This document shows, one piece after another, positions 1-30,239 of a stretch of 64,000 nt of DNA (the first letter of the stretch is position 1; each line of letters starts with the position of its first letter). Below the pieces are notes generated by a model, which was given only the letters and a program-made list of their open reading frames with translations, had not been told where the DNA came from and searched no databases. The stretch is from Rhizoclosmatium globosum (Eukaryota > Chytridiomycota > Chytridiomycetes > Chytridiales > Chytriomycetaceae): contig MCGO01000037.1 of the NCBI GenBank assembly GCA_002104985.1, forward strand, positions 62,001 to 126,000. Reading direction: 5' to 3'. Made by a program: the position numbers and the translations under genes.

Positions 1-3000
1 GAGCTCGAATCAGTGCATCGTAGTCACATTGTCGAGGTTCATTCTGATATTGAGCTATTGTATTTGTTGTATAGCTTAGTTCTGGCCTCGTCACTTGAGA
101 TAAGTGCGATAGTTTCATGTTTGTTGATAATATCCATTTCTTAACTTTTAAACACGTGATAAGTGGACTACTGTTATCATGTATCCATGATTCACGCATA
201 GGTGATTCTTTCATTTCGCTTTCGGGTATATCCCAATAACCGGCTTCTTTGAGGACTTCGGTCGCATAATTCGGCTGACCAATCCATATTCCACCATTTA
301 TGCGTTCGATTTGGACTTTAAGTATCCAGTTTGCATTGTCATTTTCAGTTATTGTGAATTTCGATTTCAATAGATCTTTAACCATTTGAATCGCGTCGTG
401 CGAGTTACTTGCGATTAGAATATCATCGACATAGATAAGTACTATGGTCATTTGTTTTGTATCGGGATCAAATTTAAACATTATACAGTTATCAGATGAT
501 AGTTGTTGGAAACCATTGTTAATGAAATGATCGCGAATCACTTTATAGAATTCGCGCGACGATTGGTGAAGACCATATAACGTTTTCATCAATTCGGCAA
601 TCATCTGTTTTCCTTTCGCATCGGTTTCTTCAAAACCGGGCGGTAGTCGCATGAAGTTCTTTTCTTTTAGGATTCCATGCAAGAATGCAGTCTTTATATC
701 CGCTGTAGACGTATGTAAACCTAATAGCATCGCTAATGCTAATGTTAATCGTACAGCTTTCATTCTAACTACAGGTGAGAATGTCTCGTTGTAGTCTTCG
801 TTTTTAACTTGACCTGTTCCAACGGCAACGAGGCGCGCTTTGAAACGTTCTAAGAAACCCATCGGGTCTTGCTTATAGTCGAAAACCCATTTGCAGTTTA
901 TAAGCTTCCTTCCTTCAGGTAATTCGCTTATACTCTTTTTATCAAATACGCCTAAGTCTCTTAACGACTCGAACTCGATTAACATTGCTTTCTTTAAATA
1001 ATTCGCAAATTTATGATTCAATGCCTCCTTCAGGTTTTTCGGTACTGGCCCTAATTCCGAGACATGTACTTTTCCTGGTGGCTTTGGTGAATCAGCTACG
1101 TCGTCCCAATTTATTCTATCCTTTTGGGTTCGTTTTTGATTAATGCTTGTAGCAGCGGCTTTGAATTTTTGTTCTTGTTTCTCTACAAACTCGCTGAGTT
1201 TTCGGTAATGTTTTTCGAGTCTCTTCTCGTGGTTTCTATGTTGAATATTTTTACCGTCTCCATTAACAGCTCTTGCTTCGGTGTCTTCAGCAAGTATCTT
1301 AAAAAGCTTCGAGTTATTCGCATATAGCTCATCTAAGGCTAAAGCGGTTATCACTTCAGGCAAGCTTTCACAATTAGATTCATTGATTTCGTATTTGTAG
1401 TTAACTCCAAACAGTTTCGGTTTAAGCTTTGCCTCCTTCTTCAACGGCTCCGCCACGTTGAGTTTCGGCCTGTCTTTACCAACTTCCGCCTTTGTTGGCC
1501 CGAGCGAATTGGATACTACGGATTTTGTTTCAGGTCTTGTCATGAGTTCAGGTTTGTTTTCGCTTCTTCGCTTTTTATTTAAATGTTTAATGTATTTTAT
1601 CTCATCTGACTTTGCACGCTTTCCTGCCAACCGGATTTGTGCGTCACCATCGGAATCGCTTTCACTAGCGTTGGGTGAATCTAAGTCATGTGAGACCTTC
1701 TCTCTATCACCATTTGAATTCAACGAGTCCTTTACTTTAGGTTTCGTTCGTTGAATTACCTCTTCCTCAGGGCACCCGAGGGATTCTACGCGTTTCTGTT
1801 CTGGAATCCAATGGGTCGGGCCAGGACCATCTACGGGATCCAGACGGAGTTGACCATCGAACGTAAGCTCAGTGTTTGGTGCTCCATTTTCAGCACTAAC
1901 CAATTCTTGACTCGAAGGATCTACTGCTGTTACCACACCAGCGGCGCCGCCAAGGTCAAATAGGTCAGTTGGACTCACATCCCCGAATTCTTCAACGTGC
2001 AGGTCTTTATACGCTGATTGTTGAAGCAGGAACGGATTCAAGTGATGTGGTCTCAAAACCAAACCAGGGAATATCGTCGGGTAACATCGAATGTGGTATT
2101 CTGTACTCACAGTCGCCGTTCTAAAATTATAAACGCGTAGCAGCAATTGTCCTTCATATCCCAGAAAGATGACCGGTTCACCTTTGTGAAACTTGGTCTG
2201 GCGGACAAGTGGGTCTCTTTCGCTTCTATTGGCTTTTCTAACCTCACTTCGTGTCTCCTCAGGGATAAGCTTCATTGCTAGGCAACCAAATGGCTGGAGG
2301 ATTCGTAAATCTATTTTTGGTTGTAGTGGTAATAGTTGGCAAGGTATTTGTTTTGTTGTTGAATGTATTGTTAAGTTTTCAGTGAATATAGTATAATCTA
2401 AAGCGAATTCAATAAAGCTAGGTGGTAATGTGCTATGTTGTAACGAACTTGCGGCGCGGTGTCCTGAGACCCCTATTGGTCGTTCAACTCCACCATTGAA
2501 TTCCTTCACGTAGCTTGGCGACTGTTTATGGTCCCAATTATTCTTTTCGCATATAGTTTCAAATCTATTCGTTGCGAGTTCACCTCTATCGGATCTCCAT
2601 TCAACGATTTTGACATTATATCTTCGTTCGAGTTTCTCACCAAATGCGGCGATCTTCTCATCAAGTTTTTGTAAATTGTGGTGCCATAAGATCCATTTAT
2701 ATTTCGAGTATGCATCCACAATTAAACTAGCGTAACGTCGTCGATGGTACGTTTCAACTAATAATGGAAATGTGTCTTCAAATAAGGTGTGTCCAAACTT
2801 CGGCGCTGTTGCATTTGCCGAATAGACAGGTTTCTTTTTGATTGCTACCAGTCCACAAATTGGACAATCTGTTTCGCATTTTGAAAAGTCGAACTCAATA
2901 TTCATTGCTTTAAGCGTACGGCACATGCCTTTAACACCAACATGGTTTAATTTGTAATGCCATTTCAAATAATCAGTCTCAACTTTTCGAGTTTGGGATT

Positions 3001-5125
3001 GGGGCATAATAAACTTCTTTTTCTTTTCGTCTTTTAATTTATCTTCTTTCTTTTTATTATTCACATTGTTCGCAACTGGTTGTTGCGTGTTTCGGATTTT
3101 CGAGATTTCCAAATAATATAGATCGCCGTGGCGTTTGCCAATACGGACCATTTGATTCATGTTACGTAAATAAAGATGTACTGCATGCTTATCCAATACT
3201 ATTGCATCGTCCGTATCACCCAGCAAGTGAGTTACGGACATCAATGCGTCTGATAATTCTGGAACATACAGAACATTCTCTATTCTGCGCGTTATTCCGT
3301 TTCCAAGATTTAAAACGATTGTTCCATATCCCTCTATCGGGATCTTGGAATCGTTTGCGAGGTAAACGAATCGCCCACTAGTTGGTTTAAAGTCGATCAA
3401 GTCCGACTTCTTGGGAGTCATATATTTTGATGCGCCACAGTCAACCATATCATTGGTCTCGCTTTTATCCGTATTTGCTTTATTTGCTGATAATTTGTTG
3501 CATTTTACACAACTACAACTTTTTATTTCAAATAAACCCGCTTCTTTCAGCAGAGTATCAATTAGGTTAGATAAATAAACATTGTCTTTTGTAATTTCTG
3601 ACTTGAATTTGAATCCATCATTCGTCGTCGTTGGATTCACTGTCAGACTCGAAGGACTGGTTGCCACTTTCTCTGTCGGTTTCGTCTTCGACTGTAACTC
3701 GGCAGGCTTTGGAAGATCCAGTTTCCTCCTTTTTGATTGGTGAGTTATAGTGTAATTGTTTAAAGGACTTACTTTGAGTAGATTCTCAAGTTCTTCCAAG
3801 TCCTTGGTATCCACGTGGTTTCCACGTTCCTTCTTGATCGTCTTGAATTTCTTGCCGTTGTACTCATCACGTTGGCTGTTCTTCAAGCGATCCTTGGCAT
3901 CCTTAATCTTCTGGGTAAGCTCCTTCACTTTCCCCGCTGCTCTCATTGTCTTAACGGTATTGCAGTCTTCAAGGGTATGAGGAACTCCGTACGGATGAAG
4001 GACGCATTGGTCTTTGCTGGGTTCGCTGTGTCCACGTTTCCTTCCAGCATCTGTACGCCCTTTGCCATCATTTCCACGTCCACGTTCGGCGCGATCATCT
4101 TCGCGATTGCGACTGTAGCGACCCCCCTTGTAATCGATGGGAGCGGTGGATGACGCGGCATTGGCTTTGGCTTTTGCAGCAGAGTTTTCTTTTTCGAGTT
4201 CCGTTTGATATGCTCGAAGGCAGCTGTTCATGTTATCCAATAAAGCTCGTGCGGTTTTATACTTTGAGTTACCGTCACGGCGAATCTCGGATGCTAGTTC
4301 CATGAAGCAGTGTCCCATCGAGGTGTTCGGATCAGGTAGAACAGACTTGCACGCAGCCAACATCAAATCCACAACAATGTTGTTAAGTGTGGATGTATCA
4401 TCATTGGTAGCGTACCTCGGTTTTAATACTTGGGCTTCGTCGAGGCATTTTTCCGCTTCATTCAAGAACGACTTCATTTGGTTAGCATCGTTCCGTTTAT
4501 ACGCGTTTCCAAGATTAAGGACTTTAGTGAAAAATTCGGATGCTTGAGTACCAGATTTATCTACATGGGAGACTTCAGATCCAATAATTTTGATGGCGCA
4601 GAACAACGTCGGATTCTTTTGATAATCCGCGTGTCGTTTCACCTTGTCAATAAGGTCACCATCCTTTGGAAACAACATATAAAGTTTCGAGAATGCTTGA
4701 GCGTGAGATGATTTAACCTTTTTGTATTTTTCCATCTCCTTCTCATGCTGCTCCAACAAGTAGTTATAGTTTTTCCAAGCACCAATGTAGATGGCATGGT
4801 CATATTCATAGTTTCGATAGTTTTCAGCATTTTTGAGAATATTTTGTTGGATAGTATCATTATCTGGTGCGCCTTCTTCAGTTGTGGTTGGAAGTTTGAC
4901 AGGCGCGTTTGGCTCTGTGAAGGTCTTTTGACCAGGATGTTGGGTCGTCACGAGATTATCAATGGAAATATCATCATTGAACTCGTTGTAGAATCCCAGA
5001 CTGCTGAAAATAGTTTCCAAGTCTTTTTGACATTGGGTCCAATTGAGAGCATTCAAACCCCCGGTGTACGTATTTTGGAACTTCTTAATTAAGAAGTCGG
5101 CGTCCTTGTTTTTGTCAGAGAACAT
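1..5125 (-). mobile_element. Ty1/copia LTR retrotransposon, partial (cut by window edge)
   Basis: Minus-strand copia-class element whose coding frame is open from its ATG at 5125 to the left edge of the window. The domain order gag, protease, integrase, reverse transcriptase is typical of Ty1/copia (integrase before RT). The distal RT, RNase H and 3' LTR lie outside the window. The 5' LTR and primer-binding site should lie just right of 5125, but without the second LTR I cannot place their ends. The intact frame suggests a recent insertion. Confidence 0.93.
1..5125 (-). CDS. Copia Gag-Pol polyprotein (C-terminus missing)
   Basis: At least 1708 codons without an in-frame stop. Read from 5125 downwards, the first ~430 residues are a gag-like, lysine-rich region ending in an Arg/Gly-rich tract. 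This is followed by an atypical zinc-knuckle-like motif with the order Cys-His-His-Cys near 4020. The protease active site reads DCGAS instead of the usual DSGAS near 3440. The integrase HHCC finger begins near 2960 (WHYKLNHVG, then CPICG), and the D-D-E core follows with VDAYSKYKWI and SDRGEL. RT follows, with FKARLVAVG, TAFLHG and the catalytic YVDDILIAS near 430. The last visible residues (RPELSYTTNTIAQYQ) match the conserved copia segment just after the RT core. One continuous frame means Gag and Pol are made as a single polyprotein. Start chosen as the first ATG of the open frame. Confidence 0.92.
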   Translation of the reverse strand, partial: MFSDKNKDADFLIKKFQNTYTGGLNALNWTQCQKDLETIFSSLGFYNEFNDDISIDNLVTTQHPGQKTFTEPNAPVKLPTTTEEGAPDNDTIQQNILKNAENYRNYEYDHAIYIGAWKNYNYLLEQHEKEMEKYKKVKSSHAQAFSKLYMLFPKDGDLIDKVKRHADYQKNPTLFCAIKIIGSEVSHVDKSGTQASEFFTKVLNLGNAYKRNDANQMKSFLNEAEKCLDEAQVLKPRYATNDDTSTLNNIVVDLMLAACKSVLPDPNTSMGHCFMELASEIRRDGNSKYKTARALLDNMNSCLRAYQTELEKENSAAKAKANAASSTAPIDYKGGRYSRNREDDRAERGRGNDGKGRTDAGRKRGHSEPSKDQCVLHPYGVPHTLEDCNTVKTMRAAGKVKELTQKIKDAKDRLKNSQRDEYNGKKFKTIKKERGNHVDTKDLEELENLLKVSPLNNYTITHQSKRRKLDLPKPAELQSKTKPTEKVATSPSSLTVNPTTTNDGFKFKSEITKDNVYLSNLIDTLLKEAGLFEIKSCSCVKCNKLSANKANTDKSETNDMVDCGASKYMTPKKSDLIDFKPTSGRFVYLANDSKIPIEGYGTIVLNLGNGITRRIENVLYVPELSDALMSVTHLLGDTDDAIVLDKHAVHLYLRNMNQMVRIGKRHGDLYYLEISKIRNTQQPVANNVNNKKKEDKLKDEKKKKFIMPQSQTRKVETDYLKWHYKLNHVGVKGMCRTLKAMNIEFDFSKCETDCPICGLVAIKKKPVYSANATAPKFGHTLFEDTFPLLVETYHRRRYASLIVDAYSKYKWILWHHNLQKLDEKIAAFGEKLERRYNVKIVEWRSDRGELATNRFETICEKNNWDHKQSPSYVKEFNGGVERPIGVSGHRAASSLQHSTLPPSFIEFALDYTIFTENLTIHSTTKQIPCQLLPLQPKIDLRILQPFGCLAMKLIPEETRSEVRKANRSERDPLVRQTKFHKGEPVIFLGYEGQLLLRVYNFRTATVSTEYHIRCYPTIFPGLVLRPHHLNPFLLQQSAYKDLHVEEFGDVSPTDLFDLGGAAGVVTAVDPSSQELVSAENGAPNTELTFDGQLRLDPVDGPGPTHWIPEQKRVESLGCPEEEVIQRTKPKVKDSLNSNGDREKVSHDLDSPNASESDSDGDAQIRLAGKRAKSDEIKYIKHLNKKRRSENKPELMTRPETKSVVSNSLGPTKAEVGKDRPKLNVAEPLKKEAKLKPKLFGVNYKYEINESNCESLPEVITALALDELYANNSKLFKILAEDTEARAVNGDGKNIQHRNHEKRLEKHYRKLSEFVEKQEQKFKAAATSINQKRTQKDRINWDDVADSPKPPGKVHVSELGPVPKNLKEALNHKFANYLKKAMLIEFESLRDLGVFDKKSISELPEGRKLINCKWVFDYKQDPMGFLERFKARLVAVGTGQVKNEDYNETFSPVVRMKAVRLTLALAMLLGLHTSTADIKTAFLHGILKEKNFMRLPPGFEETDAKGKQMIAELMKTLYGLHQSSREFYKVIRDHFINNGFQQLSSDNCIMFKFDPDTKQMTIVLIYVDDILIASNSHDAIQMVKDLLKSKFTITENDNANWILKVQIERINGGIWIGQPNYATEVLKEAGYWDIPESEMKESPMRESWIHDNSSPLITCLKVKKWILSTNMKLSHLSQVTRPELSYTTNTIAQYQNEPRQCDYDALIRA

Positions 5126-20348: not shown

Positions 20349-20734
20349 AGTGGAATGTCATGGGAGGAGTACTCGAAAAGAGAATTGTATTATAAGAATA
20401 AACGGAATGATGGTGGGATGTGATTAGGGGTTTGATCGAAGTTAGATCATCCACTGATGAGACACCCGTCTTTGATTATTCTGGAAAGACGCAGTTTGCC
20501 CGGTTGACAGCTACCGTAATGCTTCCGTGATGTATTGATGACGGTCTAGGTATTCGCTATCGTCTTGAGATGGATGTGCCGGGCTTAGACACAGTGGCGA
20601 TTGTTGTCCCACTTTCCGCTGATGAGTAATTAACTCTTTATCGATTCTGGCGTACCCGTCCTCAAATGTTACTTACTAATAGAGTCTCTTAGTACCGACC
20701 CTATACTCATACACTCTTACCATCCACTCTACGC
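20349..20734. other. Intergenic sequence left of the Ty3 element
   Basis: This 386-bp stretch lies between the coiled-coil gene's stop and the 5' LTR. An AATAAA-like signal sits near 20396. A short piece near 20440-20630 has protein-like composition on the plus strand, but it needs a 34-bp intron with the wrong phase, so I do not call a gene. The retrotransposon interrupts this intergenic region. Confidence 0.4.
20731..20734. repeat. Target-site duplication ACGC, left copy
   Basis: ACGC directly precedes the TGTGG end of the left LTR and is repeated directly after the right LTR at 30236-30239. A 4-bp duplication fits Ty3/gypsy integrases. Confidence 0.75.
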
Positions 20735-21121
20735 TGTGGTGGGTGAAACTGCGGACGGTGGTTACTGTGTTTGTTGGGTGGTATTGGCGTTACACCGAGA
20801 TTTGGGGTAAATGGGAATATTCATAGTTGTTAGACGCGTTTATTGAAAGAATAAAAGAAGAATTATTGAAAGCGGTTGCGTGCCAGCATCAGATAACTCG
20901 GAACCCGGATTTGCACATATCATCGAGCATTGCTACTTAGTATCGCGTGTGAGCGTCAGTTGCAAGAGTCATCGATTCAAGTGGTCCATCCCAGTAGTCT
21001 GTTCAGTGTCCAAGAGCCTACATCCAAGTCTTCATACAGGTGTTGGCTTAGTCTTCTACGAGCGAACCCAATTAGCATTGTCTGTGCAAGCGTAACACAG
21101 TCACCTGTATCCCTTGCCACA
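20735..21121 (+). repeat. 5' LTR of the Ty3/gypsy element
   Basis: 387 bp, beginning TGTGGTGGG and ending CCTTGCCACA. It is a direct repeat of 29849-30235. I found one difference, C against T, in the motif GGTATTGG(C/T)GTTACACC near 20788 and 29902. A GAATAAAAG polyadenylation-like motif occurs near 20848. Confidence 0.95.
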
Positions 21122-21140
21122 GTGGAGCCCAGCGTTTAAA
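21122..21140 (+). other. Probable primer-binding site
   Basis: One base after the LTR the sequence reads TGGAGCCCAGCG, starting with the TGG expected from pairing with a tRNA 3' CCA end. None of the tRNAs in this window has the complementary 3' end, so the primer tRNA is not identified. Confidence 0.5.
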
Positions 21141-21206
21141 CCGTAGCGGATCTTAGTAGAAGCTTTGGGACTGGAAACGAAAAACGCCACCCAATTTAAA
21201 TTCAAC

Positions 21207-23969
21207 ATGTACAACAACGTCGACCTCAAGACCGAGTTTAACGGAGAGGGCGTCTCAAATTTTGATCGATTCATCTACAAGTATACGGCTCAGACTCTTA
21301 CCCCAGACGTGAAGCTGGTAACGGTTTTGCGTGCCTTCTGTTCAAAGGCTGTAACGGACGAGCTGGATGCCTGGATTGCGGTAGAAGAAGCAACAGCTAT
21401 TGCGGCTGGAATTAAAGTGAAGGAGAAGACTTTCGACGAGGTGCGAAAGTGGATGCGCGACACCTACGCTGCAAGGGACGTTATTTACACGTTCCACGAC
21501 CTGTCTTCGCTAGCGGATTACGTTCAGGAAAATCCCTACACGTTGATTGGCGAGTATTGGGCCGACTACAAGGAGATCTACGATCGTATCCCAGCCAGCA
21601 GTGCTCCTGACGAAAACAAGGCCATGATGACGTTTATTGGTGGATGTAAGCCACACCATCGCTTGGAGCTCTCGAAATACACCGTGGATGCCAACAATAG
21701 CCGTTCTAAGGACTGGGTGGGATTCAGTGCTGCTGTTGTTCGCCAGGCAGCAATTGATCGTCAACTTGTTCAACTTGGGACTACGAATGGAGAGGTTGCA
21801 CGAGGAGCGGACCCTTTTGCTGAGAAGTTGCCTGCTATCACTCGGTATGTTCGTTTGACTCCTAAGAAACCTCCAGCTGCGACGTACCCAACGACCACCC
21901 CTTCCGCTGGACCAACTACCACGACTCCTGCCTCTTCCGTGGACGAGCTTACCCGTATGATGTCCGATTTGACTATCAAGATCTCTGCCGGTGTTCCAAT
22001 GGATCAGATCAACGTTCCCCAGTACATCAAGAACATGTACCTTGCTGTAGTGTCCAGTGTTGTTCGCGGTGCCCCAGCTCCAGCTGTTCCTGGTCTTCCG
22101 GCTCAAGGTCCTTCTGTTGGTGGTGTCTCAGCGGCTGCCGGTACTCAAGCCAGACCTTCTCGCTGCCTTTTTTGTGATCGTCAAGAAGACCACTGCCGCC
22201 GAGACAACGTCAAAGTCCACCGCTTTTGGAGAGAATGTCCAGACTTTATTTTCGCTTGCCAGAACGGTTGGCCTTGCAAGGAAGTCAAGGAAGAGAATGG
22301 TCGCAGTCGCCTCTCGGATCTGGCTGGAAACCCATGGGGATCCAATTATGGTAAAGGTGGTATCAAGGCGTTGATCGAAAGATCAATGCGTCCTGCAGGT
22401 AGTACAAATTCTGTTCGTGGTCGTATTATGATGACCAAAGCCGCTGCGCCGGAGTTGGTGGACAGTGACTTGTTGGATATGGAGTATGCACTGTTTGACG
22501 ACAATGGTAAAGTTGTATTGTTACACAACGGAGTGGCGCATTCGCTGGAGAGTGTTATGAGTTTGTGTGGAGTGGACAATGTGACTCACGACGAGGCTGA
22601 CGAAGCCTTTTGTTATATCGCGGAATCCATGAAAGTTCCTGTTGAAGAACTGGAGGTGACTTGTCAGGACGTGTCGTGGGCAGTTTCTCGGATTCGTGCC
22701 GAGGCTTTTGCAAAACGTTCGAGAGAACCGGAGGAGGTTGTTGGTCCAGCCCCTAAACGCTTACCTGTTACTCGTTCCAACAGATTTATGCCATTGTCTG
22801 AGCTTGGTTCCAGTTCTTCTGCTCCACCCGTTGCTGCTCCAGTTCCCCCAGTGGTCGTGCCTCCTCCTGCTGCTCCGGCTCCCGCGCCTCCATCTGGTCC
22901 TGTTCCATTGGGAAAGCCGGAGAAACGTGCGTTTCGTATGGGTAAGACTGGCCCTGTGACTGAGATCAAGCCAGATGACGTTTACAAGGGAATCTTGAAT
23001 ACTGATGTGACTTTAAAGCTTGTCGAGCTTCTGGCTATCTCTCCTGGAGCCGCCAAGTATTTCTACGGTTCTGTTAAAACTCACCGCATGTACGATGTCG
23101 ACGAGCCGCAGCCTATTCCAATGGCGGTGGATTCCTTGATGGGGCAGCCTGGATCTGCAGCAAACCAAATGCTGATGGGTAAGATCCTGTCTGAAGGGCC
23201 CTCTGTCTTGGACCTTCCATCTGCGGTGGTTGGACTTCTTCGTGCAAATGCGGATCGTGTGTTGCCGTCTTCTGAGGACAAGGAACGTCTTGTCAAGGTC
23301 ATGGTTCGTCGCAATGGTTCTGCTATGGACAGTGTTGATTCTCAGTATACTCGCATTGGTGAATACAAGGCTCGGGTCATGTCTGTTGGTTCAAGAGTTC
23401 AGCCGTTCGACCCGAAAGTCCAGTACTCAACTCATGGTTCCCCGCATTTCTACGACGTAGTGTTTCAAGATGGCTTTGTGGTATTGCGCGCTCTTGGAGA
23501 CTCTGGATCGGAGATGAATGTGTGCTCTTTTCGTCTCGCTCAAGACTCAGCTTCTCAGTCTATCGTTGATCGCAATGTGGTGATGTTCATGTACAGCGCT
23601 AACGGGAGCGAAAGCGAAATCTATGGTATGATTCGCGATGCGAAGATTGGGTTCCGCGGTGGTGTTGATGTCCTTCAGAAAGTCTACATTGCTCCTAAGG
23701 CTGACAAGTCTCCATTTGCTCTTCTTTTGGGAATGCCTACTCTGATCTCGACCCGTTCCAGTTCTGTTATTGACACCAACGGAAACATGTGGCACAAGTT
23801 GACGTCTCCTATTACCAATCGTAGTATTCAGGTTATGACGTGCCCAGCTGACCACCCCAGAAACCAAGTGGAGCCAGTCTCTCGCGACAAGCCAATGCAG
23901 GCTGAGCAGTTTGGAATTATTGAGCGTCCACCAGGCATGAAGACTTGGGGGGAAGTGATGGGAATGTAG
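21207..23969 (+). CDS. ORF1: Gag with C-terminal retropepsin-like protease
   Basis: 920 aa from the ATG at 21207. Residues ~1-270 are a capsid-like helical region typical of gypsy Gag (retrotrans_gag style, with FDRFIYKYTAQTL and IGEYWADYKEIYDRIP). A Pro/Thr/Ala linker follows. At ~319-345 there is a Cys/His-rich segment (CLFCDRQEDHCRR, then HRFWRECP) that differs from the usual CCHC knuckle. After a Pro/Ala tract (~535-570) comes a protease domain with the active-site motif GDSGSEMN at ~764 and the later LLGMPTL, equivalent to the ILG motif of retropepsins. Having the protease in the Gag ORF, with Pol separate, is notable. The stop at 23969 is followed by a spacer and not by an overlapping frame. 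Confidence 0.9.
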   Translation: MYNNVDLKTEFNGEGVSNFDRFIYKYTAQTLTPDVKLVTVLRAFCSKAVTDELDAWIAVEEATAIAAGIKVKEKTFDEVRKWMRDTYAARDVIYTFHDLSSLADYVQENPYTLIGEYWADYKEIYDRIPASSAPDENKAMMTFIGGCKPHHRLELSKYTVDANNSRSKDWVGFSAAVVRQAAIDRQLVQLGTTNGEVARGADPFAEKLPAITRYVRLTPKKPPAATYPTTTPSAGPTTTTPASSVDELTRMMSDLTIKISAGVPMDQINVPQYIKNMYLAVVSSVVRGAPAPAVPGLPAQGPSVGGVSAAAGTQARPSRCLFCDRQEDHCRRDNVKVHRFWRECPDFIFACQNGWPCKEVKEENGRSRLSDLAGNPWGSNYGKGGIKALIERSMRPAGSTNSVRGRIMMTKAAAPELVDSDLLDMEYALFDDNGKVVLLHNGVAHSLESVMSLCGVDNVTHDEADEAFCYIAESMKVPVEELEVTCQDVSWAVSRIRAEAFAKRSREPEEVVGPAPKRLPVTRSNRFMPLSELGSSSSAPPVAAPVPPVVVPPPAAPAPAPPSGPVPLGKPEKRAFRMGKTGPVTEIKPDDVYKGILNTDVTLKLVELLAISPGAAKYFYGSVKTHRMYDVDEPQPIPMAVDSLMGQPGSAANQMLMGKILSEGPSVLDLPSAVVGLLRANADRVLPSSEDKERLVKVMVRRNGSAMDSVDSQYTRIGEYKARVMSVGSRVQPFDPKVQYSTHGSPHFYDVVFQDGFVVLRALGDSGSEMNVCSFRLAQDSASQSIVDRNVVMFMYSANGSESEIYGMIRDAKIGFRGGVDVLQKVYIAPKADKSPFALLLGMPTLISTRSSSVIDTNGNMWHKLTSPITNRSIQVMTCPADHPRNQVEPVSRDKPMQAEQFGIIERPPGMKTWGEVMGM

Positions 23970-24333
23970 GAATGTTTGAGATTGAATCATTTGATATATT
24001 GAATTGGGATTGTTGTTTGAAATAAAAGAAAGAGTTCCCAAATTGAGCAAATCGTGCATCAGCAGCAACCAACTCAATAACGACCATTGATCTCACTGAA
24101 TAGCGTCATTCTACATCTGTTACGGTTCATCTACATTAGTATTGCGTGTGCGCATCGTGTATATTGGAGCCTCTGTGTATTGAAGTGATCGTGTCTATCT
24201 GTCAGCATCAAGGTTTCTGTGAGTCCCTGCCGTTGCCTGTTTGCATTTCTGGTCTCTACTATCTGCAACTATTGATTGCCACATCGCCCTTGCGCTTCTA
24301 CCACTTCTGAAATTTAAATTGAGTTGTGATTGC
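23970..24333 (+). other. Spacer between ORF1 and ORF2 of the Ty3 element
   Basis: 364 bp. It contains an AATAAAAG motif near 24021 and no ATG in the ORF2 frame before 24334. ORF2's frame is open from about 24241 without an ATG. ORF1 (frame of 21207) and ORF2 (frame of 24334) do not overlap, so simple ribosomal frameshifting cannot join them. An internal promoter, splicing or re-initiation would be needed. Confidence 0.6.
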
Positions 24334-27300
24334 ATGCCAGTTGAAACAGGCATCCCTGCCCTCGAAGCCTTTGCCTTGAATTGGAACTCGCTACGTTCAT
24401 TCTTCAGGAAAGCTTCTCTTGATCATATCCATCGGCTGTACTGCGCCGATGTAATCTTTGGAACTGAGGACCGCCTTGGTCCCTTCTCTCACATCGATGC
24501 GTTCAAAGTCGCGGACGTTCTTGATCCTCGCTTCAATTTTGAAGCAAAGTTTGAGGTGTACGCTTCAAAGAACCGCTTGAAGCCTGGAAATAATGGAGCA
24601 TCTGTTTGGTTGTGCCGCGATCTGTTCCCTGCCCCTCCGACTTGGTTCATCACCGAGTTTCCTGGTTGGAGTTCCGACCAAATGGAGGGTCGCTACGTCG
24701 AAGTCTGCTACGAACGCCAAGTTTTTATCAGCGTGTATTGTCCTTCTGCCAGCCGAGGTAATACCCATCGGGAGCCATTCAAACGGCTGTTTCATCAATG
24801 TCTCAATGAACGTCTCGCCTCTTTGAAGAGGGAGGGATTTTCCATTTTGATGGGCGGTGATTTTAACATCTCTGCAGAGGAATCGGACATTCACCCGAAT
24901 GTGATTCCTCTAATCTCCTCTGGATTCCAATCCGTTGAACGTGAGTTGATGAAAGAGATGAAACAATCGGTGGTTGACTTTTGGCGGCGGGAGCATCCTT
25001 CTGTATCGGACTGTTTCACCACTTGGTTCCATCTTGACCGTCGCGGGAATCTAGGAATGCGCTATGATGGAATTTTTGGCACTGCTACTATTCGTTCATC
25101 AACTAAACACCTGTCTGAGTTTTCTGCGTCAGATCATGTTCCAGTGGTCTCTGTTATTCCTTTGGAGGATCTGTGCATGACTTTCAGTCATTTGGCAATT
25201 GGTTCGGACGGAGGAACTGTTTCTGAAAATGGAAACAATTTTGGAGAAACATCATCGGAGGGTTCGTCGCCTTCGGTGTGTGAAGGGTGTGGCGCGTTGA
25301 ACGACCCGTTGTGGGCTTGTTCTATCTGCGAAGCGGCGTTGTCCTCAGAGCATTCTGAATGCAATGAAGATATGCCTGACCTTTTGAGTGATTCGGATTC
25401 GGACGCCCCTGCTTCACGGCGATTGGCGAAAGATGATGTGAGGGTTAGTGTTAATATGGGTTTGGATAATGTTGAGTCTGTATCGGCGTATTCTGAATCG
25501 TATTCGGATATGCCTAGTTTGGCACACAGCGAGGACAGCGATTCTGATTCAAACCAGGAGTCAAGTACATGTTTGAGATGGAACGACTTTTTACCTGTCT
25601 CGTCTGATGTGCCTGAATCGGTTGCGAGTAGTTCGGTATGTTCTGAATCATATTCAGATATGCCTAGTTTGGCGCACAGTGATGACAGCGATTCTGATTC
25701 AAACCAGGAGTCAAGTACATGTTTGAGATGGAACGACTTTTTACCTGTCTCGTCTGACGTGCCTGGACCGGTTGCGAATAGTTCGAACGAGGGCTTTGAG
25801 GTGATCGACCACCCACTGCCTGAGCCAGTGAAGGAATCAGCGTCTGATGCTGGTTTTGGAGGCAATGATGGCTCTGTTGCGTTAGATTATGGGTTTCTAC
25901 CCATTGAAGGGTTTGTTAATAACGTAGGCGCGAAAATCAATCTGGAAGAACGGTTTGGTTTGACTGACGAACGAGTGATTGGTGTTGCCGTACCTCTGTT
26001 TTCAGTGGCTGAAGACGCCGAAGGATTGGTCGAGTTGGTGGAAAGCCTGGAATCCGGTGTGGAATTGTCTGAGGATGATTTGGGTCGTGTTCACGTTGCC
26101 TATATGAATTTTCTGGCGCATACCGGTGGAGAAACTGCGGAGGAGTATCACGGAAAGGGAGGGGTCTTGCAGATGCGAGGGTCAGTGTTCACGAAGGCCA
26201 AGAAAGTGGCGGACAAAGTAAGACCTGCGGCTGTTGCGTTGCCTCCCGGAACCGCGATTGATAGTTGGAAGAGCGAGTTGAAAGGGGTGGTGGCGGAACC
26301 ACCAAAATTGCGACTTACAGAGGAAAGGTTGGATGCCATGTTTCGTAAAACGCGGGAGCTGGATCCCGATTTTTTGCGTGAATCTGAAGTGGAGTATTTG
26401 AAGGAGAGGTTGCGCCCGTATGACAAGGCTTTTGCCTTTGATTTGACTGAACGGGGCCGATTGAAAGAGGAAGTCATCAAACCTATCAGGATCCATACTG
26501 TTCCTCATGTGCCTTGGAATGTCCGAGAGCGCCCGATCCCGCGGGCGCATTTTCCGAAATTGATTGAGTTTCTTCGTCAGAAACTTGCAGTGGGTGTGAT
26601 GGAACCTTCAGTTGGCGCTTATGCATCGCCGTGGTTTGTCGTCGCAAAGAAGGATGGTGGAATCCGTTTTATTCAAGATCTCCAGTTGTTAAACAAGGTT
26701 TCTATTCGGAATTGTGGATCTCCACCAAACATGGATGAGTTGACTAGTCGCGCAGCTGGACATTGGATATATTCACTGGTGGATGCCATAAGTTTCTTTG
26801 ATCAGATACCACTGGACGAGCGCGATCGCGATATGACGGCTATTATGACGCCGTTGGGTTTGATGCGGATGACTGGGTTGCCGCAGGGGTGGACTGGGAG
26901 TCCTCCTCACGCGCAGCGTGTTTCGGTTATGGTTTTCCATAAAGAAGGTGAGTGTGAGGTTTTTATTGATGATATGGCGGTGTTCACTGGGAAGCCGCCG
27001 GATCTTGGGGAGTCGAGTATTCCTGGAGTTCGCGTGTTTGTAGTGGAGCACATGGATGCGTTGGCGCGAACTTTGCAGCGTTGTCTGGATTCAGGATTGA
27101 CATTACACGGAGAGAAAAATGAGTTGTTTGTGCCAAAGGCGTTAGTGCTGGGAGTGGTGCTATCTAAGGACGGTAGACAAGTGAACCCGAGTAAAGTGGA
27201 TGCCATTTTGAGATGGGGTCATCCCACTGGTGTTCCGGAGTTGCGTTCGTTTCTGGGAATGATGACTGTTTGGCGCGGATGGATTGACTGTTTCTCTTTG

Positions 27301-29844
27301 CGGGCCTACCCCTTATTCATGTTGTACCGGAAGGGCCAAGATTGGATGTGGGAGTCTGAACAGAAAGCGGCTTTCGAAGATCTGAAGCAGTGTTTGAATG
27401 AGGCGCCAATTCGTGGAAACCTGGATTTGAGTGATTTGGAAAATCGACCTCCAATCCTATCGTTTGATGCTTACATGGTGGGAGAAGGAGCGGTGCTGCG
27501 TCAGGTCGGACTTGACGGGAAGCGATTCGCAATCGCCTTCTATTCGGGGCTGTTCAACGCAGCGGAACGAAACTATCCGCAAGTGAAGAAAGAGTTGTGT
27601 GCGTGTGTTCGTAACTTGAAGCGCTGTTACGTGTTGGTGTTTGGGTGTCCGGTGTTGGTCTTGGAGACAGACGCGTCGGCGTTGAAGGGCATGGTGAACA
27701 ATCCGGCGATAACGGACCCAACCATGTTGCGATGGATCTTGTACATTCTGACGTTTCCTGTTGTTTGGAAGCTGGTGAAGGGTGTGTCGCATCGAGTTCC
27801 AGATGCATTGTCTCGAGTTTTCTCGAAACCTCCGCCTCATGCGGACGCGACTGATGATAGTCGCGAAGTGGAAGATGCCATTGATTCGATGTTACAATTG
27901 GTGAGATCTTGTTTTGTTGGCGACTTAACTTTGAAGGAAGCGGAAGTTGAATGGGGAAGTTACACGAGACGGATGGAGGCTGCTCGTATGTATTTAGTGG
28001 ATTACACGGAATACGAGGAGGATGTGAAGATGCTTGAGGTTGCTAAGTTCCTGAACGGGGACTTAGTTTCAGTTGTTGACTTGAAGGAATTGACGGATTT
28101 GACCGATCCACCCCGCTCTGCCGAGCGCTCTTCGGAGCTTGAGGGTTTGTTGCGGACTGAGGGTTTGTTGCGAACTGAGGGCTCGTTGCGTTCGAGGGAT
28201 TCAGAAGAGCAGGGTGACAGCGCCAAAATGAGCGACGGTAACAGCGCCGAAACGAGCAAGGAAACTGCACCGAATCGTAACGAAATTGAAAACTCGAAGA
28301 GCAGTGGGAACAGCACCGAAATTGAAAATGTAAAGAGCAGTGGAAACAGCACCGTAAAATCAAATGAAGAGTTGAGAACTATAAAGAGGAGGAGTGCGAG
28401 GTACTTTATTCGAGATGGACTTTTGTGGCGTAGAAGTGATGATGTATGGGAGTTTCCGACTAGAGTGGTGGCGAAGAAAATTGATCAGTTGCGAGTGATT
28501 CAGTTGGCTCATGAGGGAGTTGGCGGAGGACATTTTGGTGCGAGTGCTACATATCGGAAGGTTAGATTGCGTTACTATTGGGTGAATATGGAGGCGGATG
28601 TTCGTCGAATTGTTGGATTGTGCGTTGCGTGTATTCATATGAGTTTGCGTCGAGAGGTGGAAAGTAGCAAGCCGAGTAAGGTTCCAATGTCTGTCGTAAT
28701 GGTTTGGATTGGTGACATGGTTCATATGCCGCGTGGAATGAATGGTAAGCGGTACCTGTTTCATATGGTCTGCGATCTGTCTGGATATCCGGAAGGGGAG
28801 TCCTTTGGAACGAAAGCTTTAAAGCCATCGATGGAGTGGGTTGTTCGGAATGTGTTTATGCGTTTCGGGATGCCAATGGTAATGTTAGTGGACGGAGGGG
28901 AGTTCTCGTCTAAGGAAGCGGAGGAAGTGTCTCAGCAACTGGGTTTCCGGATTCATGTTACTACCCCGTATAATTCGCAGGCATTGGGTGTTGTGGAACG
29001 TGCTCACGCGCCATTGGTCCGTGCGATGGCGAAGACTTGCCGTGGCAATCCTAGGGCTTGGCCTCGATTTGTCCATTCCGCTTTGTTCGCAGCTAGAATT
29101 TCTTGTGGTATTCGTGGCCATTCTCCGTTGAAAGTCCTGATTGGTCAAGACGCGCTGTTTCCATTGGATTTCGCTCTCGGCACTTATTTCATTCATTCCT
29201 GGCGCGATGGCATGTCCACTGGTGAGCTTCTTGCTAATCGTATGTTGCAACTGGATGGTCACTCGATTACTGTTTCTCGTGTCCGCGAAGTAGTCAACTC
29301 AGCTAGAGTCAAGTCAAGTTTGGAATTCAATCGTCGAAATGCACACAAGCTTCGTTCTGAGCCTTTCAAAGTTGGCGAGTGGGTATTGTTATGGGACTCC
29401 AGTCTTGACACACAGTGGGGTCGCAAATTTGATGACCGCTACAATGGACCATATGTGATCGTTAGCGTACACGATGGCAGTTACTCGTTACGTGAACTGG
29501 ATGGGCGGGAGTTTCGAAGCCGTATTTCTGGGAACCGCCTTATTCGCTATCCGAGGGAGTTGTCTTTACCTGAGTTTGTTCAAGATGTCTTTGATGGCGA
29601 GCCAGACAACGTTCCCGATTCTCACGAGGATGACAGTCGATCGCTGGCTGTCGCTTGCTTAAACAAGATCTGGAATTCGCCTGAACTGGAATTGTCCGAT
29701 AGGTTTTCTGGATGGCATACTACCGCGTCGTACTCTTCTTCATCCATTATCAGGTCTGCCAAAGAGGTCGAAGCGTACTCCTTTGTGGGTTTTAGTGGTC
29801 CTGTGAATCCAGGGGACGGCTTCACTCGCTACGCTAGTGTTTGA
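24334..29844 (+). CDS. ORF2: APE endonuclease-zinc finger-RT-RNase H-integrase polyprotein
   Basis: 1836 aa in one uninterrupted frame. Residues ~12-275 form an ExoIII/APE1-type endonuclease: NWNSLRS (metal-binding Asn), ADVIFGTED (Glu), MEGRYVEV, ISVYCPSA (Tyr), MGGDFNIS at ~173 (Asp and Asn), NLGMRYDGIF at ~242 (Asp) and SASDHVPVV at ~267 (catalytic Asp-His). At ~315-335 lies a RanBP2-like zinc finger (CEGCGALN then CSIC). An acidic Ser-rich region holds two 50-residue repeats (~386-485). The RT follows with VVAKKDGGIRFIQDLQ, LPQGW and FIDDM (~876). RNase H follows with FDAYMVGEGAVL and LETDASALKGMV. The integrase has its HHCC finger at ~1390 and the D, D, E residues in GDMVHM, VDGGEF and VVERAH. 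A GPY motif (RYNGPYVI) is near 1705. The APE domain starts only ~15 residues after the ATG. Confidence 0.93.
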   Translation: MPVETGIPALEAFALNWNSLRSFFRKASLDHIHRLYCADVIFGTEDRLGPFSHIDAFKVADVLDPRFNFEAKFEVYASKNRLKPGNNGASVWLCRDLFPAPPTWFITEFPGWSSDQMEGRYVEVCYERQVFISVYCPSASRGNTHREPFKRLFHQCLNERLASLKREGFSILMGGDFNISAEESDIHPNVIPLISSGFQSVERELMKEMKQSVVDFWRREHPSVSDCFTTWFHLDRRGNLGMRYDGIFGTATIRSSTKHLSEFSASDHVPVVSVIPLEDLCMTFSHLAIGSDGGTVSENGNNFGETSSEGSSPSVCEGCGALNDPLWACSICEAALSSEHSECNEDMPDLLSDSDSDAPASRRLAKDDVRVSVNMGLDNVESVSAYSESYSDMPSLAHSEDSDSDSNQESSTCLRWNDFLPVSSDVPESVASSSVCSESYSDMPSLAHSDDSDSDSNQESSTCLRWNDFLPVSSDVPGPVANSSNEGFEVIDHPLPEPVKESASDAGFGGNDGSVALDYGFLPIEGFVNNVGAKINLEERFGLTDERVIGVAVPLFSVAEDAEGLVELVESLESGVELSEDDLGRVHVAYMNFLAHTGGETAEEYHGKGGVLQMRGSVFTKAKKVADKVRPAAVALPPGTAIDSWKSELKGVVAEPPKLRLTEERLDAMFRKTRELDPDFLRESEVEYLKERLRPYDKAFAFDLTERGRLKEEVIKPIRIHTVPHVPWNVRERPIPRAHFPKLIEFLRQKLAVGVMEPSVGAYASPWFVVAKKDGGIRFIQDLQLLNKVSIRNCGSPPNMDELTSRAAGHWIYSLVDAISFFDQIPLDERDRDMTAIMTPLGLMRMTGLPQGWTGSPPHAQRVSVMVFHKEGECEVFIDDMAVFTGKPPDLGESSIPGVRVFVVEHMDALARTLQRCLDSGLTLHGEKNELFVPKALVLGVVLSKDGRQVNPSKVDAILRWGHPTGVPELRSFLGMMTVWRGWIDCFSLRAYPLFMLYRKGQDWMWESEQKAAFEDLKQCLNEAPIRGNLDLSDLENRPPILSFDAYMVGEGAVLRQVGLDGKRFAIAFYSGLFNAAERNYPQVKKELCACVRNLKRCYVLVFGCPVLVLETDASALKGMVNNPAITDPTMLRWILYILTFPVVWKLVKGVSHRVPDALSRVFSKPPPHADATDDSREVEDAIDSMLQLVRSCFVGDLTLKEAEVEWGSYTRRMEAARMYLVDYTEYEEDVKMLEVAKFLNGDLVSVVDLKELTDLTDPPRSAERSSELEGLLRTEGLLRTEGSLRSRDSEEQGDSAKMSDGNSAETSKETAPNRNEIENSKSSGNSTEIENVKSSGNSTVKSNEELRTIKRRSARYFIRDGLLWRRSDDVWEFPTRVVAKKIDQLRVIQLAHEGVGGGHFGASATYRKVRLRYYWVNMEADVRRIVGLCVACIHMSLRREVESSKPSKVPMSVVMVWIGDMVHMPRGMNGKRYLFHMVCDLSGYPEGESFGTKALKPSMEWVVRNVFMRFGMPMVMLVDGGEFSSKEAEEVSQQLGFRIHVTTPYNSQALGVVERAHAPLVRAMAKTCRGNPRAWPRFVHSALFAARISCGIRGHSPLKVLIGQDALFPLDFALGTYFIHSWRDGMSTGELLANRMLQLDGHSITVSRVREVVNSARVKSSLEFNRRNAHKLRSEPFKVGEWVLLWDSSLDTQWGRKFDDRYNGPYVIVSVHDGSYSLRELDGREFRSRISGNRLIRYPRELSLPEFVQDVFDGEPDNVPDSHEDDSRSLAVACLNKIWNSPELELSDRFSGWHTTASYSSSSIIRSAKEVEAYSFVGFSGPVNPGDGFTRYASV
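25491..25790 (+). repeat. Two tandem 150-bp units inside ORF2
   Basis: 25491-25640 and 25641-25790 are near-identical in-frame copies encoding 50 residues each, centred on SESYSDMPSLAHS and LRWNDFLPVSSDVP. A degenerate related motif (EDMPDLLSDSDSD) lies just upstream. Mostly synonymous differences suggest a recent duplication kept in frame. Confidence 0.85.
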
Positions 29845-29848
29845 GATC

Positions 29849-30235
29849 TGTGGTGGGTGAAACTGCGGACGGTGGTTACTGTGTTTGTTGGGTGGTATTG
29901 GTGTTACACCGAGATTTGGGGTAAATGGGAATATTCATAGTTGTTAGACGCGTTTATTGAAAGAATAAAAGAAGAATTATTGAAAGCGGTTGCGTGCCAG
30001 CATCAGATAACTCGGAACCCGGATTTGCACATATCATCGAGCATTGCTACTTAGTATCGCGTGTGAGCGTCAGTTGCAAGAGTCATCGATTCAAGTGGTC
30101 CATCCCAGTAGTCTGTTCAGTGTCCAAGAGCCTACATCCAAGTCTTCATACAGGTGTTGGCTTAGTCTTCTACGAGCGAACCCAATTAGCATTGTCTGTG
30201 CAAGCGTAACACAGTCACCTGTATCCCTTGCCACA
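29849..30235 (+). repeat. 3' LTR of the Ty3/gypsy element
   Basis: 387 bp, direct repeat of 20735-21121 with one difference seen. It begins only 4 bp after the ORF2 stop codon. No polypurine tract is obvious immediately upstream; the nearest G/A-rich run is at about 29811, inside the coding sequence. Confidence 0.95.
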
Positions 30236-30239
30236 ACGC
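30236..30239. repeat. Target-site duplication ACGC, right copy
   Basis: Matches ACGC at 20731-20734 on the other side of the element. Confidence 0.75.

Follow-up and report, generated by a model that had tools for sequence, protein, structure and literature searches.

Additional enzymes have been reported in a number of long terminal repeat (LTR) retroelements and other transposons (the papers below are cited from excerpts). The position of dUTPase varies in retroviral polyproteins, and LTR elements of bdelloid rotifers carry a DEDDy exonuclease in a third open reading frame (ORF3) and also dUTPase (PMC5408684). A Dnmt3 domain is found in gypsy Pol in Klebsormidium, where it is under purifying selection (PMC5890265), and an AlkB-like domain has been captured by gypsy elements of orchids (PMC9289625). 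Exo_endo_phos is sporadic, and possibly host-derived, in Kuafuorterviruses (PMC11673190), Troyka elements have 3-bp target duplications and CG..CG ends (PMC12440569), and Helentrons carry an AP endonuclease (AP-EN; PMC6431247). The element described here lies in a 64-kb window (the whole stretch of DNA that was analyzed) of Rhizoclosmatium globosum; it is a Ty3/gypsy retrotransposon whose Pol contains an ExoIII/APE1-type nuclease (EEP) domain, and two gypsy lineages of the genome carry a domain of this kind as a regular component of their Pol. Our literature search turned up no description of a conserved nuclease of this kind in a Ty3/gypsy Pol (subscription papers, preprints and Repbase were outside the scope, and an earlier report is possible); the layout is not described in the excerpt of PMC6338049, and no EEP domain is seen in that of a 2011 survey of fungal LTR elements that includes one chytrid (PMC3248453). 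An earlier reading made from the letters of this DNA (the sequence-only reading) knew of no standard Ty3/gypsy counterpart of the layout, and the excerpted literature agrees with it.

The window element resembles Ty3/gypsy (Metaviridae) elements in its TG..CA LTRs, its 4-bp duplication, the order RT (reverse transcriptase)-RNase H-integrase and an RT that matches Ty3 best among Protein Data Bank (PDB) chains, and differs from them by the extra ExoIII/APE1-type nuclease, which in this genome lies before the RT or between RNase H and integrase. The dUTPase-bearing retroviruses and LTR retrotransposons follow a similar logic, with an added enzyme at varying places in the polyprotein, but that enzyme is a nucleotide pyrophosphatase whereas the one here is a nuclease; a Pfam scan of six Pol proteins listed no dUTPase. 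In the bdelloid elements a nuclease has likewise been added, but it belongs to an unrelated family and is encoded by a separate ORF3 and not in frame within Pol. Kuafuortervirus/Troyka elements have 3-bp duplications, CG..CG ends and the RT motifs IADD/VADD/LADD, as compared to 4 bp, TG..CA, FIDD and a conserved EEP domain here. The Dnmt3 and AlkB elements are also cases of enzyme capture by gypsy, with different enzymes and roles. LINEs have a domain of the same EEP superfamily beside an RT, and Helentrons have one in a transposon protein; the window element differs from both in having LTRs, an integrase, a Ty3-like RT and a domain that scores nearer to ExoIII, so that it does not classify as a LINE.

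In the genome, the EEP domain was found in 38 of the 48 loci with a gypsy-type RT and an integrase (loci were obtained by merging the EEP, RT and integrase tables by strand and distance, and then by open frame). The genome searches score best candidates only and locus counts are lower bounds; besides, the two haplotypes of a single locus may in some cases have been counted as a pair of loci. The assembly may contain both haplotypes because an endonuclease IV gene also occurs twice (G000:C109:9401-10311 and C372:155306-156216), with the same two-part structure. The domain lies between RNase H and integrase in 31 of the 38 loci and before the RT in 7, so the N-terminal layout noticed in the window is the minority form; in all 38 it lies within Pol and adjoins RT/RNase H, and in families D, E and F it begins 30-33 residues past the RNase H match. 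At 22 loci (17 with the domain between RNase H and integrase and 5 with it before the RT) a single open frame runs through RT, EEP and integrase, and the remaining 16 are broken or frameshifted. Outside the 48 there are four RT loci without an integrase match and eight EEP plus integrase loci without a listed RT. A decayed gypsy copy (L073, G000:C384:148900-151200) has its RT and integrase in different frames, no EEP match and an RT-integrase distance below that of its relatives; its EEP domain seems to have been deleted.

These loci include a second copy of the window family (L038, C383); a search for further copies had been proposed in the sequence-only reading. The second copy has different flanks and a different target duplication (CAGC), which makes the two copies independent insertions and not haplotypes of one, and a chimeric join at 24334-26300, which that reading had also considered, is therefore excluded. 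Outside this genome, the N-terminal layout was found in one protein, P0001 of Chytriomyces confervae (from a separate assembly), whose gene model is without the first 50 EEP positions and hence without the Asn and Glu motifs. Taken with the 38 loci, the second copy and P0001 lead us to reject the explanation that the fusion is an artefact, either of chimeric assembly or of a one-off capture in this copy; its probability is negligible. The parts of the window element are as follows.

20731..20734, no strand: target-site duplication ACGC, left copy (identical 4 bases 3' of the right LTR)
20735..21121, + strand: 5' LTR, 387 bp, TGTGG..CCACA (self-BLAST against the 3' LTR)
21122..21140, + strand: putative primer-binding site, GTGGAGCCCAGCG.., placed by position alone immediately 3' of the 5' LTR
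21165..23969, + strand: ORF1, 934 aa from TTG, presumed Gag (open frame)
24334..29844, + strand: ORF2 (Pol), in the order EEP nuclease, linker, RT, RNase H, integrase
24364..25167 (about), + strand: ExoIII/APE1-type nuclease (EEP) domain (EEP profile built from the genome's relatives)
25483..25782, + strand: 150-nt tandem repeat in the EEP-RT linker, 2 copies, 92%, present also in the second copy L038
26533..27819, + strand: RT and RNase H (profile match, frame residues 771-1199)
28393..29097, + strand: integrase with HHCC zinc finger and D,D,E core (profile match, frame residues 1391-1625)
29849..30235, + strand: 3' LTR (self-BLAST against the 5' LTR)
30236..30239, no strand: target-site duplication ACGC, right copy (read from the flanks)

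The window element is a young, structurally complete Ty3/gypsy retrotransposon. Its LTRs are identical at 387 of 388 aligned bases (one mismatch, TG..CA ends, by self-BLAST), and the duplications of the window copy and of L038, 4 bp each, fall within the 4-6 bp usual for Ty3/gypsy (PMC12440569). TGGAGCCC adjoins the 5' LTR at the position of a primer-binding site, and no tRNA was matched to it. Toward its C-terminus ORF1 has a D-S-G motif like that of retropepsins (DSG at residue 779), and it has a Pfam match to DUF4100 (29.9 bits, cut-off 27.9); no gag or protease match was found among the Pfam models. The claim that an ExoIII/APE1-type domain stands in frame with the RT, RNase H and integrase of an LTR element is borne out by a single frame that is open from 24223, has its first ATG at 24334 and closes with a stop ending at 29844. 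In ORF2, RVT_1, rve, Integrase_H2C2 and the two RNase H models score above their Pfam cut-offs. Ty3 Gag-Pol is the top PDB match of the stretch from RT to integrase (E 3.2e-36), within which the integrase segment also hits foamy virus integrase (2.4e-14). The catalytic D and DD of RT (motif FIDD) and D-E-D-D of RNase H are all found, and the integrase keeps HHCC, D, D and E, with a D-to-E spacing of 35 residues. The linker between EEP and RT is long and Ser/Asp-rich; right after the EEP domain (about 25300-25365, same frame) a CxxC-x9-CxxC pattern (CEGCGALNDPLWACSIC), a candidate zinc finger, was spotted by eye. In the gap between ORF1 and ORF2 (23970-24333) there is weak colinear similarity to the LTR, with a score equalled in 7 of 500 shuffles; it is perhaps an internal promoter of ORF2.

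As for the identity of the nuclease, the window EEP taken singly is matched only weakly, and it becomes clear with its relatives. A phmmer search with it against PDB chains gave 51 matches at E<=1; exodeoxyribonuclease III came first (E 5.8e-11), with a match that spans only residues 110-265 of 278. The Asn and Glu motifs lie further N-terminal, in a part that becomes recognisable on alignment with 16 relatives from the same genome. In this alignment of 17 domains (about 20-37% identity between families) the catalytic Asn, Glu, Tyr, Asp-x-Asn, Asp and Asp-His columns are invariant in all 17, across both lineages, as is the Gly-Arg of the EGR motif; the motifs picked out by eye in the sequence-only reading all fall on invariant columns (of EGR, only G and R). 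We assume for these residues the roles that they have in APE1. The profile test proposed in that reading gave a divided answer: PF03372 is above its cut-off of 24.5 bits in the six-frame genome scan (27.2 bits) and below it in the protein scan (22.1 bits). Like ExoIII/APE1 (xth) proteins the domain has the catalytic set, and it differs from them in being fused into Pol. Among the 67 xth matches in the genome, 35 exceed the equivalog cut-off of NCBIfam TIGR00633 (99.05 bits), one of them only together with its frame neighbors, and relatives of the window element are among those above it (L004, 136.5 bits; L019, 131.3 bits). With the profile of the 17-domain family, hits to ExoIII/AP endonucleases begin at E 1.8e-49, with human APE1 near 3e-40, and those to LINE-1 endonuclease begin only at 7.7e-16. 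For a LINE domain from the same genome (L057), the PDB hits at E<=0.001 number nine, consisting of LINE-1 endonuclease/ORF2 entries plus LR1 and LTX, which are taken as LINE-1 variants. By these comparisons the Pol nuclease scores as ExoIII/AP-endonuclease type and not as LINE type. A predicted structure of the domain, built from 4 sequences, is of low confidence (pLDDT 58.4, pTM 0.66); its top Foldseek matches are AP endonucleases, and because the model is weak we take these as merely supporting. In the second EEP lineage, Thr stands at the equivalent of APE1 Phe266 by ungapped spacing to the next Arg-x-Asp (the family profile alignment is one residue off). Phe266 is, we presume, part of the abasic-site pocket of APE1, and therefore the second-lineage nuclease may, tentatively, prefer 3' ends over abasic sites as substrate.

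A fungal genome survey attributes PF03372 to LINEs, yet not as exclusively derived from transposable elements (PMC10799480), and a survey of insect retroelements reports it in an RTE element (PMC3391268). With a Ty3/gypsy Pol as its carrier, PF03372 (Exo_endo_phos) near an RT is an unsafe marker of LINEs.

The nuclease could nick target DNA, which would give the element an integrase-independent insertion route or a choice of target. LINE endonucleases, of the same superfamily, nick their targets, and the four EEP elements with 4-bp duplications can be set against one EEP-free element with a tRNA-adjacent 5-bp duplication, although these are very few cases. Four of the five EEP elements checked (the window element, L038, L042 on C416, and the C90 element) have target duplications of 4 bp, and four of the five have TG..CA ends; for the fifth, on C146, LTRs were found but no target duplication in the flanks. 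A pair of full LTRs ending in TG..CA and flanked by short duplications of fixed length is the product of integrase, whose catalytic residues are intact, and the domain itself scores as ExoIII-type rather than LINE-type. Target nicking thus looks decidedly unlikely to us, and the link to LINE-like target-primed insertion drawn in the sequence-only reading is supported neither by the insertion marks nor by the profile scores given above. Because four of the five elements show 4-bp duplications, it looks like integrase suffices for the insertion of EEP elements. In the EEP-free element just mentioned (L044:6747-7048, G000:C399), the two 220-bp LTRs do not differ and the duplicated target is CAAAG; a tRNA-Glu gene lies 10 bp from the end of the element, as in Ty3-like targeting; no tRNA was found in the short flanks of three EEP elements (L038, L042 and C90).

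The RT and RNase H catalytic residues are invariant in 19 aligned rows and those of integrase in 18. The nuclease would therefore add an activity and replace none, and EEP as a substitute for RNase H or integrase is rejected. ExoIII also acts on RNA:DNA hybrids, and the nuclease might remove the tRNA or polypurine primer or assist RNase H, for which its place right beside RT/RNase H in families D, E and F would be suitable. All four acidic residues of RNase H are, however, kept in 19 of 19 rows, with no sign that a replacement is needed, and we regard such hybrid processing as quite unlikely.

The ExoIII family combines AP endonuclease, 3' phosphodiesterase and 3'-5' exonuclease activities. 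Because of this chemistry, the dUTPase parallel and the position of EEP next to RT/RNase H in all 38 loci, we favor a role on cDNA, for which we see about an even chance: the nuclease would be synthesised as a segment of Pol, packaged beside RT and act on nascent or finished cDNA. It would remove mismatched, blocked or surplus 3' nucleotides and cut abasic sites; RT could resume extension after the 3' end has been trimmed, and integrase, which would carry out the insertion step itself, would then be supplied with clean CA-3' ends. The presence of EEP in most of the Ty3/gypsy elements found suggests that these elements process or clean their own DNA copies.

Selection on the domain was assessed from synonymous and non-synonymous EEP differences in 13 copy pairs, of which six are saturated, one has no differences, three have few and three are informative. 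The informative pairs have 15/1, 22/4 and 10/2 synonymous/non-synonymous differences (omega 0.02, 0.04 and 0.05) and show that the EEP domain is under purifying selection. The pairs with few differences have 4/5 (the window pair, omega 0.36), 2/1 and 1/1.

Several observations weigh against the proposed role on cDNA. In the window pair, the 4 synonymous and 5 non-synonymous EEP differences compare with 30 and 0 in the RT, so the nuclease changes faster than the RT; the window-family EEP has diverged, which counts against full function in that family. The window EEP matches TIGR00633 at 70.1 bits (E 2e-19) in one comparison and at 68.7 bits in another, both below the equivalog cut-off. Ten of the 48 RT plus integrase loci have no EEP match, and the EEP profile was negative on 6 of these 10 as well; it also had no match in three gypsy-like stretches from plasmid records, which served as outside controls. 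If cDNA were cut at AP sites, a ligase would be required, and none is seen encoded by the elements.

The faster evolution of the window-family EEP as compared to its RT would fit a nuclease that is accessory or host-directed, i.e., one that counters the repair machinery of the host or competing nucleic acids, or that binds DNA without cutting. LTR elements with accessory domains of unclear use are known (PMC5408684, PMC9289625). A binding or structural role would not demand that metal-binding and catalytic residues be invariant in 17 of 17 domains, and we think an accessory role unlikely. The cDNA role, in its fullest form, would mean that two Ty3/gypsy lineages have a Pol that both copies and corrects cDNA, with 3'-5' proofreading and an abasic-site nuclease of its own, mobile within Pol and with the catalytic set kept; this we consider possible but rather doubtful. 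LTR-element reverse transcriptases are generally regarded as lacking proofreading and as leaving the repair of cDNA to the host; a conserved ExoIII/APE1-type nuclease in Pol makes this view directly testable.

To place the domain, we used an RT tree of 19 elements and an unrooted EEP tree of 25 domains. In the RT tree, the window lineage (8 rows including P0001) is one group (100/100), within which the five rows with an N-terminal domain form one clade (98/97) and the three other rows another (100/99). The six rows of the second EEP lineage likewise group as a clade (99/99), which is closer to EEP-free elements. In the EEP tree, the domains of each lineage form their own clade (96/92 and 100/100). 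Therefore, the window lineage has one domain lineage in both Pol positions, which we read as relocation inside Pol, a case of domain relocation within a polyprotein. By the approximately unbiased (AU) test, one clade of all domains from the slot between RNase H and integrase is rejected (p 0.0005), while one clade of all N-terminal domains (p 0.21) and a single origin for all gypsy EEP domains, both lineages together (p 0.24), are not. Of the shared descent for which the sequence-only reading had proposed EEP and RT trees, the part within each lineage is supported, and a joint origin of the two lineages is neither shown nor rejected. As for the donor, a LINE-derived endonuclease is disfavored by the scores and by the branch that separates the genome's three LINE domains (100/99, in the unrooted tree). 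The sole non-element xth-like stretch singled out (L069) is presumably APE2-like, judging by its motif, and no host ExoIII/APE1 gene was identified in the genome, where introns could conceal one.

Protein-database searches at E<=0.001 gave 1, 2 and 1 proteins, i.e., P0001, a pair of RTs of group II intron type that carry ExoIII domains, and one ligase D-type protein (given the length limits and make-up of this database, absence elsewhere is uninformative). The two RTs (P0004 and P0006; 959 and 954 aa) have an N-terminal ExoIII-type domain followed by the group II intron-type RT and maturase domain, which is another ExoIII-RT fusion. Three scans of viral contigs gave no relatives. Among the 5 best of 54 plasmid records in a tblastn search, three have gypsy-like RT/integrase and two are bacterial exodeoxyribonuclease III. 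Two unannotated records filed under Bacillus licheniformis plasmids (L077 and L078; NZ_CP065944.1 and NZ_CP065945.1) contain a gypsy-like RT and integrase without EEP, and look like misplaced eukaryotic sequence. Elsewhere in the window, a copia-type Pol (RVT_2, 161.9 bits) is found at 2-5125 on the - strand, truncated by the left window edge.
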